64,000 nt of DNA from Anodontia alba. Lineage: Eukaryota; Mollusca; Bivalvia; Lucinida; Lucinidae. Below are positions 12,659-15,600 of the stretch, piece by piece. Below the pieces are notes generated by a model, which worked only from the letters and a program-made list of their open reading frames with translations, was not told the origin of the DNA and ran no database searches. The stretch covers positions 127,649,692 to 127,713,691 of the forward strand of contig OZ024823.1 in the NCBI GenBank assembly GCA_964016985.1. Direction: 5' to 3'. The translations under genes and the position numbers were made by a program. The first letter of the stretch is position 1, and each line of letters opens with the position of its first letter.

Positions 12659-15600
12659 GTAAGTTTTAAGTATTTCAGTAAAAGTAAATTTTCTACTTTG
12701 CCGGTCGTATTTGACATACATTTGTATTAATTCAAAGCAAAGCAAAATTGCAGCAGACGATATTCTAATTATTTTTCAGAGAAAGTTAAACCTGACATTT
12801 CATGTGAATCGTCTGCATGAAATGTCAAGCCTAATTTTCTGAGAAATACAGGAAAATAAAATAAATCAAACTTTCGTCTTCTGCAGTTGTGATTAGCGCA
12901 ATATGTAGCCGTTTTGTAGAAGCGACAAATCGATGATAAACATATTTTTACAGTGCAGAATTGCTGAAGACAGAATACAGCGGCGTTTTTTGCTTACCAG
13001 TATCTGCATACCCTCTCACCTCACACCCCCACCCCATGTGTCATTATTGACTTGACAAAAAAAAAGTTGGTGTAACTAAAGCACAAGTTTTTTTTTTCTT
13101 TAACTAAATATAAAATGCCCCGTTTTATGTATTTGTGAAAGCACCAGAATACATGTATGATCTCTGCCGCCTTATAAGGCTCATCACGGAAACATACCTA
13201 TATAATTTTGACCCCCTTAAACCCCACTTTCATATAGTAAAACTGGGGTTTACAGGGGTATACATTAGTTTGCATATTTCTGCTCAAAACATAGATTGTG
13301 GGTACTCGTTAGAAGCGCCTCGGCGAGGCGGTTCTAACGAGTACCCACAATCTATGTTTTGAGCAAATATGAAGGCGGTTCTAACGAGTACCCACAATCT
13401 ATGTTTTGAGCAGAAATATGAAAAATGTCAGAATTTTTTTATCTGAAAATTTTCATTTTTTGGTGGTAAAATTTTGAGTATATTTGAATAGGCATGTTTT
13501 CGTAATGTTTCGATTTACCATTTGTCGTAACTACCTATGCACAAAAAGTTTTATTCTATTCAATGGTGTTTAAAAAATCAAATATTTTCAATGCAGAAAT
13601 TTGTAGTGTATGTAACTTGGAGGTATATTTTCAACAAGTTCTGCTTCATTTTTTCTGGAATTTGCACAATATTGTTGTGAAACATCAATAATTTAAATTC
13701 AGCAAAGAAAAGTAACAAAATATTTTCTTAGACAAATGGACAAAAATTCCAAAATCACTTTACTATAGAAATTGCGTAAGTCAGACCAATTTTTGGTGAT
13801 AAATTTAATTTTAGGGTACATATTTGAGAACAAAACACAGAAACAGAAAAGACAAGTATTGTTTGATAAGATATGGTCTATCAGAATAAAATATTTTCAT
13901 TTAAGATAAAATGCCAAGCAAAAAACCTCTTTCCGAGAGATGACGAAAGGACAGCAGCCATCAAAATGTAAAGCGAAGCAATTTGAAGCAGACAACAGTC
14001 TTTTTCTTTTTCAATTAATTTTCAGGGAAGATATAAGGCTTAACACTTCATGTGAATCGTCTAACTAGACAGACGATTCACATAAAGTATCAAGCCTTTT
14101 TCTCTGAAAAAAAAAATAGTTATTTAAAAATGTCGTCTATACTGCATTTGTGACGTGCATTAATGGTTAGACTGTACCCAGCAAACACACGTTTAAATAA
14201 CGTCGTTTCGACGTCGCTGCGACGTCTTGACGTCGCTGTGACGTCGAACCGACGTTTTACGACCTTGTGTGTTTAAACTGATTGCAGAATCCCAAGAACG
14301 ATTCATTTATAGTGGTGACTTATTTTCTCAGGGAAAACAACAGTATTATACAAGATAAAATTAAACGAAGTTGTCACGACCATTCCAACGATAGGGTTTA
14401 ATGTCGAAACTGTTCAACCAGTAAAAGGACTTCAGTTCACTGTGTGGGATATTGGAGGACAGGAGAAAATCCGACGGCTATGGAGACAATACTGTCAAAA
14501 CTCAGAAGGTACATATTTACATATATACTCATTTTATTGTTTCAAATATTTTAGGTAAGACCACGGTATTGTACAAGATTAAATTGAATGAAACAGTGAC
14601 GTCAATACCTACTATTGGGTTTAACGTAGAAACGGTCCAGCCAGTTAAAGGACTGACGTTCACGGTCTGGGATATTGGTGGACAGGAAAAGATCAGACGT
14701 CTGTGGCAGGTGTACTTTCAAAATACTGAAGGTACGTACATAAAATGTCAACAAAAAAAAAAAAAAAAAATACTGAAACCATTTTACTTGATCGTCTGTC
14801 ATACTTTGCAAGGGAGACAACTTTTATGAGAACCTGTTTGCTTTCCAGCACATAAAGCTCCTTCTCAAAAGGATCGTTTTTTTTGTTTTGTTTTTGTTTT
14901 GTTTTGGACGTCCAACACTTACATTACGAAAACACGCCTATACAAATATATTGAAAATTTCACCACCAAAAACTGGAAATTTTCAGATAAAAATTCTGAT
15001 ATTTTTCACATTTCTGCTCAAAACATAGATTGTGGGTACCCACAATCTATGTTTTTGAGCAGAAATATGAAAACTAATGTATACCACTGTGAGCCCCAAT
15101 TTTACTACATAAAAGTGGGATTTAAGGGGGTCAATATTATATAGGTATATTTTCGTGATACCTTTAATTCTGTAATGCTTAGTTAGAACAGAAACCGAGT
15201 ATCAGCAAAAACAGTAATTTAGGGAAAACACACACACACTCACACACACAAAAAAAAAAAAAGAACAGAAAAAAAAAAAAAAAACGTTAATGCTTAGCAA
15301 TAATTTGAAAGATTAGTACCTATCAGTGTTGTGATCAGCAAAAAAAAAACCTGTTGGATCAAATTCTGTTGTAGTCGTAAAACTCTAATGACGGACATAC
15401 AGTATTCTCTGGTTTTATCATCATCGTTTCAAACTTGAAAGACTGTCCCTCTGTACCGCCAAAATAAATCTTAAAATGTTACCTCCATTTCCAGGTTTGA
15501 TTTTCGTGGTTGACAGTGCGGACCGCGAGAGAATGGTTGAAGCCCGGGAGGAATTGTTTGGTATACTAGACAGTGACGAGATGAGAGGGGTACCAGTCGT

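Follow-up and report, generated by a model that had tools for sequence, protein, structure and literature searches.

The window, by which we mean the whole stretch of DNA that was analysed (64 kb, C3:127649692-127713691 of a 1.86-Gb genome), carries two genes of a tandem array of four ARF genes. The four genes start at 127627917, 127639698, 127651329 and 127662259 on C3, with a spacing of approximately 11-12 kb, and the last of them, gene 4, harbours two adjacent versions of exon 2, which are called 2a and 2b (Table 1). The closest relatives of the protein come from Ruditapes, Mya, Mactra and other bivalves, which marks the genome as that of a bivalve. The other genes have a single exon 2, which carries the usual ARF sequence RHYFQN in gene 1, is of the b-type in gene 2 (QVYFQNTEG) and is of the a-type in gene 3. 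The array with its single-exon a-type and b-type paralogues, as well as the gene conversion described below, was absent from the earlier note on this DNA. At gene 1 no second exon 2 was found in the stretches examined, and the same was true for the stretches examined at the ARF-like genes at C3:10.27 Mb and C1:79.52 Mb. Genome sequence searches, the counts of which are lower bounds, gave no second 2a/2b pair elsewhere in the genome among the matches listed. Three ARF-like loci at C3:100.4-101.1 Mb (L001, L002 and L004) are single open frames of 240-259 codons, in which switch II is altered and reads WDVGLRSGSRP instead of WDVGGQ. Copies of one repeat family (approximately 80-95% alike) lie within the introns of genes 3 and 4 or beside these genes, some of them inverted (window 13172-13508, 14921-15173, 1768-2052, 6571-6894 and 18175-18450).

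Table 1. Features of ARF genes 3 and 4, in window positions.
Feature	Position	Strand	Description
Gene 3	1638..4706	+	Single a-type exon 2; exons 1638-1728, 3035-3211, 3764-3898, 4537-4706
MITE-like element	3228..3413	.	47-nt inverted ends; in gene 3 intron 2, where 2b would lie
Gene 4 exon 1	12568..12658	+	ATG, N-terminal helix, P-loop start GLDAAG
Gene 4 exon 2a	14332..14508	+	a-type switch exon: V44, Q65, R82-Q83, S88
Spacer	14509..14554	+	Between 2a and 2b
Gene 4 exon 2b	14555..14731	+	b-type switch exon: T44, T65, Q82-V83, T88
Gene 4 exon 3	15495..15629	+	NKQD motif, constant part begins
Gene 4 exon 4	16252..16421	+	C-terminal part, TGA stop

The gene model of the earlier note proved correct to the base, both at the end of exon 1 and at the start of exon 3. 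Reading of the borders also confirmed its description of 2a and 2b as exons of 177 nt each, in phase 1-1, with their own AG acceptor and GT donor and a spacer of 46 nt between them. With either exon an intact ARF of 190 aa is encoded. The two isoforms have 183 of 190 residues in common, and the GTPase motifs, including the G-domain motifs and CAT, are unchanged between them, as had been claimed. The ARF family is characterised by G-domain motifs, WDxGGQ, NKQD, CAT and Gly2, and this list was used for motif reading. WDxGGQ, NKQD, CAT, Gly2 and the other G-domain motifs are present in both isoform translations, and with the Pfam profile PF00025 (cut-off 22.3) isoform A scored 217.4 bits and isoform B 218.8 bits. 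By sequence and motifs, the predicted product of gene 4 is an ARF-family GTPase, of the same family as ARF1.

In silico, the frame is kept when 2a and 2b are both included (249 aa) and also when both are skipped (131 aa). The safeguard against joint inclusion can therefore not be a break of the frame. If the spacer is retained in the mRNA, translation of the window sequence reaches a stop after 105 residues. At window 14553-14560 the acceptor of 2b lies directly before a donor-like GTAAGA, in the fashion of a recursive splice site. We considered recursive splicing, in which a donor would be formed anew once 2a is joined to 2b, but do not claim it; the single exon 2 of gene 2 also starts with a similar sequence (GTAAAA), and the donor-like start of 2b may reflect no more than its Gly-Lys codons, which readily give such letters by chance.

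Between exons 2a and 2b there are 45 substitutions in 177 nt, but neither indels nor stop codons, and 33 of these 45 differences are at third codon positions (binomial p 5e-8). The dN between them is approximately 0.08, whereas dS is 1.8 (YN00), 2.4 (ML) or undefined (NG86), and the two exons are saturated at synonymous sites. The excess of third-position differences, the low dN and the high dS therefore indicate that each exon type has long been held to ARF function. Constraint alone does not prove that the pair is held in gene 4, because there is gene conversion with gene 2. From exon position 72 on, 2b is identical to exon 2 of gene 2 (106/106 exon nt and 8 nt of the intron), in contrast to the 5' part, where only 53 of 71 nt are identical (Fisher p 2e-8). 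Judged from this tract, gene conversion with gene 2 has replaced part of 2b, and since the last 106 nt of 2b equal those of gene 2, a recent conversion may account for much of the good state of this exon. In the 5' part that was not converted, 2b and gene 2 are separated by 12 silent and 3 replacement codon differences, and none of 20000 neutral simulations under a simple uniform model was as conservative. Purifying selection is observed on both exon versions, with the qualification that gene conversion with gene 2 has contributed to 2b.

The nearest relative of gene 4 depends on the exon that is compared. Exons 1 and 4 are closest to those of gene 2 (86/90 and 139/150 nt identical), while 2a and exon 3 are closest to those of gene 3 (158/177 and 127/135 nt). 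These differing relationships and the sharply bounded tract in which 2b and gene 2 are identical thus suggest that the array exchanges sequence exon by exon. Despite this exchange, 2a and 2b, only 46 nt apart, are still far diverged.

We also searched for traces of the missing exon versions in the paralogues. In intron 1 of gene 2, 49-79 nt upstream of exon 2 (L010:6060-6089), there is a stretch that resembles the end of 2a with small gaps and that occupies nearly the same place as 2a in gene 4. With three scoring schemes, 3, 0 and 1 of 500 shuffles were as good within the last 300 nt of this intron; for the complete intron the signal is weak (16, 2 and 81 of 500 shuffles), and the stretch emerged as one among 13 comparisons. 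When the window was cut into tiles of 850 nt, and four tiles near true exons were excluded, 1 of 71 tiles scored as high. On account of the shuffle scores and the collinear place, we take the stretch as a probable degraded relic of 2a. Moreover, the spacer of gene 4 resembles the end of intron 1 of gene 2 (3/200 shuffles as good). A relic of 2b was sought in intron 2 of gene 3 and not found there (203/500 shuffles as good). The MITE-like element in this intron starts 16 nt after exon 2 of gene 3; ends related to those of the element are also found singly near window 6419-6444 and 60796-60821. The pairs seem to decay in genes 2 and 3, so the pair of gene 4 could be on its way out.

An a-type exon followed by a b-type exon was found at three other loci, which are known to us as proteins only. 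These sequences (P0121, P0122 and P0123) were retrieved by protein search with the b exon and are ORFs on contigs of 425 kb, 1.2 Mb and 658 kb, respectively, which were taken as genomic. In P0121, an a-type exon, six residues and a b-type exon follow each other in one frame, and from the protein a spacer of 21 nt is deduced. P0122 likewise contains a and then b in one frame with a deduced spacer of 27 nt; it begins inside the a exon, and its b exon looks aberrant (GFWKFNTQNTEG). In P0123 the b-type exon is in frame, and the 34 residues upstream match 2a and the spacer of the window when these are read in another frame (score 105, compared to 44 for the best of 1000 shuffles), which gives a deduced spacer of 38 nt. 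Upstream residues 1-33 of P0123 also match the place of 2a in the genome of the window. Neither P0121 nor P0123 is found in this genome, as their best five matches were 81-91% and 72-89% identical, respectively, and none was the same sequence. The order is a then b in all four paired loci, gene 4 included. The occurrence of the same pair at three other loci means that the pair of gene 4 is not a one-off.

In a tree of 27 sequences, built from the 60 residues of exon 2, the b-type exons form a clade (support 0.93). The a-type exons group beside it, with a support of 0.39 where the incomplete a exon of P0122 joins and of 0.90 without that exon, and the support for a and b types as sisters is low (0.43). 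An a-like ARF of Ruditapes philippinarum (P0006, LOC132715696; Gln65 and Ser88) joins the a and b exons in this tree.

The seven residue differences listed in the earlier note were all found in the translations: 44 V/T, 47 T/S, 65 Q/T, 82 R/Q, 83 Q/V, 85 C/F and 88 S/T (a/b). In an alignment to human ARF1, numbered from the P-loop Lys30, residues 82 and 83 correspond to Arg79 and His80 of ARF1; fungal Arf structures were also matched. At the position of His80, gene 4 therefore has Gln in a and Val in b. From 236 collected proteins, 195 exon 2 segments were obtained by pattern, 188 of them with 60 residues, and 43 proteins gave none. After adding the five exons of the array, there were 193 segments with 60 residues; position 83 is occupied by His in 151 of these, by Gln in 5 and by Val in 7. 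Arg-Gln at 82-83 is found in the a exons of the window (gene 4), P0121, P0193 and P0001, and Gln-Val in the b exons of the window (gene 4), P0121, P0123, P0192 and gene 2. The exceptions are gene 3 (Arg-Pro) and P0122 (Arg-Asn in a, Lys-Phe in b). Outside the a and b types, Gln83 was also found in P0021 and Val83 in P0077 and P0182. Three further differences are conserved, namely Val in a versus Thr in b at position 44 (Asn in P0123), Gln versus Thr at 65, and Ser versus Thr at 88, where gene 3 has Thr. The differences at 47 and 85 are unique to gene 4 among the readable a and b copies; the other readable copies of both types have T at 47 and F at 85, except for a T at 85 in P0122 b.

ARFs are read through their switches, and the specificity for GEFs, GAPs and coats depends on these. 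As the conserved differences include the positions of Arg79-His80 of ARF1, it is plausible that the a and b isoforms would have different partners. An excerpt of PMC5540999 reports that His80 is required for AP-1 binding in vitro, while its mutation had no effect on binding in living cells.

The earlier note had interpreted 2a and 2b as mutually exclusive switch exons. The pair itself stands, intact and constrained, with three further loci and spacers of 21-46 nt; what we infer is that the splicing machinery uses both exons, one per transcript. Mutually exclusive use appears to be the best reading because both exons are intact and constrained, the pair occurs at three other loci and the spacers are short. 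According to an excerpt of PMC7969005, a distance of approximately 50 nt between the 5' splice site and the branch point is the threshold for joint assembly, and in OGDH branch points below this distance enforce mutually exclusive exons. The spacers of 46, 21, 27 and 38 nt, three of them deduced from protein, are all shorter than this threshold. The spacer of gene 4 contains three yUnAy branch-point-like sites, whose distances from the donor of 2a are 11, 23 and 28 nt; any branch point within the spacer would be less than 46 nt from this donor. Judged from these distances, a steric conflict of the 2a donor with the branch point used by 2b would therefore be a likely means of exclusion. In P0121, where a spacer of 21 nt can hardly accommodate a branch point, that of 2b may even lie inside 2a. 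P0001, a close a-type relative in which the protein sequence of exon 1 is the same, is probably a transcript, because its contig of 1107 nt encodes the whole protein. No b-type transcript was seen among the matches listed in the protein searches (120 of 7988, 120 of 1602 and 120 of 7968).

We propose that 2a and 2b stem from a tandem duplication of the exon for the P-loop Lys, switch I, interswitch and switch II, and that each transcript would take either 2a or 2b. This would give two ARFs of 190 aa, which would share the membrane-binding N-terminus and the guanine-specificity part and differ in their switch surface. The exclusion would be most simply steric, the donor of 2a being too close to the branch point of 2b for both exons to be joined. 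The pair presumably arose before the related loci diverged; gene 4 would have kept it, while gene 2 would have been left with b and a probable relic of a, and gene 3 with a alone. In this way a splicing choice would have partly turned into separate genes. We consider it quite probable that these are tandem-duplicated, mutually exclusive ARF switch exons, that the pair is older than the loci and that it was split among paralogues. That splicing chooses the switch surface of an ARF and that the array turns this choice into genes, with conversion between the b exon and the b-only gene persisting, we favour somewhat more cautiously.

It might be argued that only one exon is used and that the other is a fading leftover, or has been shaped by conversion with a single-exon paralogue, as 2b with gene 2. 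The single versions in genes 2 and 3 would fit this, as would the identity of 2b with gene 2 over the converted exon tract and 8 nt of intron, the aberrant b exon of P0122 and the fact that the one close transcript-like relative among the matches listed is a-type. However, splice sites and frame are intact in both exons, the unconverted 5' part of 2b is strongly constrained, as no simulation matched it, and the pair recurs at three other loci, which makes use of a single exon unlikely. Joint inclusion of both exons, giving an ARF with a doubled switch module, or reading of the pair as one long exon would agree with the frame being kept and with the spacers of P0121 and P0122 being open in frame. 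Yet open spacers of 7 and 9 codons would often be expected by chance, and an intron of 46 nt, and even more so one of 21 or 27 nt, falls short of the steric threshold given in the excerpt of PMC7969005. Moreover, read-through of the spacer in the window ends at the stop after residue 105, and doubling of the switch module would presumably disrupt the G domain. Joint inclusion is thus highly improbable, and mutually exclusive use remains our preferred reading.

A further explanation bears on the origin of the pair and not on its use, and its odds were counted apart from those of the other readings. Gene 4 might be a recent mosaic, in which unequal recombination placed a gene 3-like 2a before a gene 2-like 2b. 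Exons 1 and 4 being closest to gene 2, and 2a and exon 3 to gene 3, would be in line with such an event, but conversion between tandem genes explains the mosaic pattern equally well. In addition, the same order and a very short spacer are found at three other loci, and gene 2 has a probable collinear relic of 2a as well as the spacer likeness. We therefore regard a recent mosaic as rather unlikely, and prefer an origin of the pair before the divergence of the loci.

Tandem exons of which a transcript takes only one are a familiar arrangement, also in GTPases. The human small GTPase gene RAB6A has a duplicated exon of which one copy is used at a time; its isoforms RAB6A and RAB6A' bind different partners and differ in three residues near switch II. 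RAB6A belongs to the Rab family, whereas gene 4 belongs to the ARFs and its swap spans the P-loop Lys, switch I, interswitch and switch II. As described in an excerpt of PMC5896119, exons 7-8 of GNAO are mutually exclusive duplicated sets and exon duplications exist in other G-alpha genes; after gene duplication in teleosts, one GNAO copy kept both exon sets and the other lost one. GNAO resembles the ARF array in being a GTPase with duplicated exons and an apparent loss of one version after duplication. It differs in encoding a heterotrimeric G protein, in which the vertebrate exons encode receptor-coupling regions and not the switch module, and in that the teleost copies stem from genome duplication, unlike the tandem ARF array. 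Exons 4a/4b of OGDH, as far as the excerpt of PMC7969005 goes, are similar to gene 4 in having a length-restricted intron and exclusion by a branch point at less than approximately 50 nt. OGDH is an unrelated metabolic enzyme, and its branch points were mapped, in contrast to those of gene 4, which are predicted. The earlier note knew of no ARF with such an arrangement, and in agreement with this no ARF with a duplicated switch exon was found by title or abstract start among the open-licence papers listed, which for the widest search were 20 of 1671. The ARF case is thus new within the literature searched. A swap of the switch module with the rest held constant would be a natural experiment on the partner choice of ARFs, in which the single-exon neighbours of each type would provide built-in controls. 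If our reading is true, alternative splicing was converted into gene duplication within one gene array.

Several long or repeated ARF proteins of other organisms were considered as ARFs with a doubled exon and were rejected by eye. P0002, P0011, P0014, P0024, P0044, P0109, P0194, P0195, P0202 and P0213 are complete or partial ARFs joined together, or contain repeats with other borders. Among them, P0024, P0109, P0194, P0202 and P0213 have a repeated segment with the P-loop or a switch in it, which might stem from a fault of gene prediction or assembly or from a different kind of exon duplication. In the ARF predictions of Toxocara canis (P0109), Cooperia oncophora (P0202) and Ilex paraguariensis (P0024) it is a P-loop piece that is repeated, which could reflect prediction faults or other exon duplications. 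The Mytilus edulis clusters isoform X3 and X1 (P0031 and P0041) were rejected as pure exon swaps, since 10 of their 13 differences lie outside residues 31-90. Two similar ARF exon 2 ORFs, P0136 and P0140, are both on contigs of 3686787 nt, perhaps one contig of another animal, and could be tandem genes or another exon pair.
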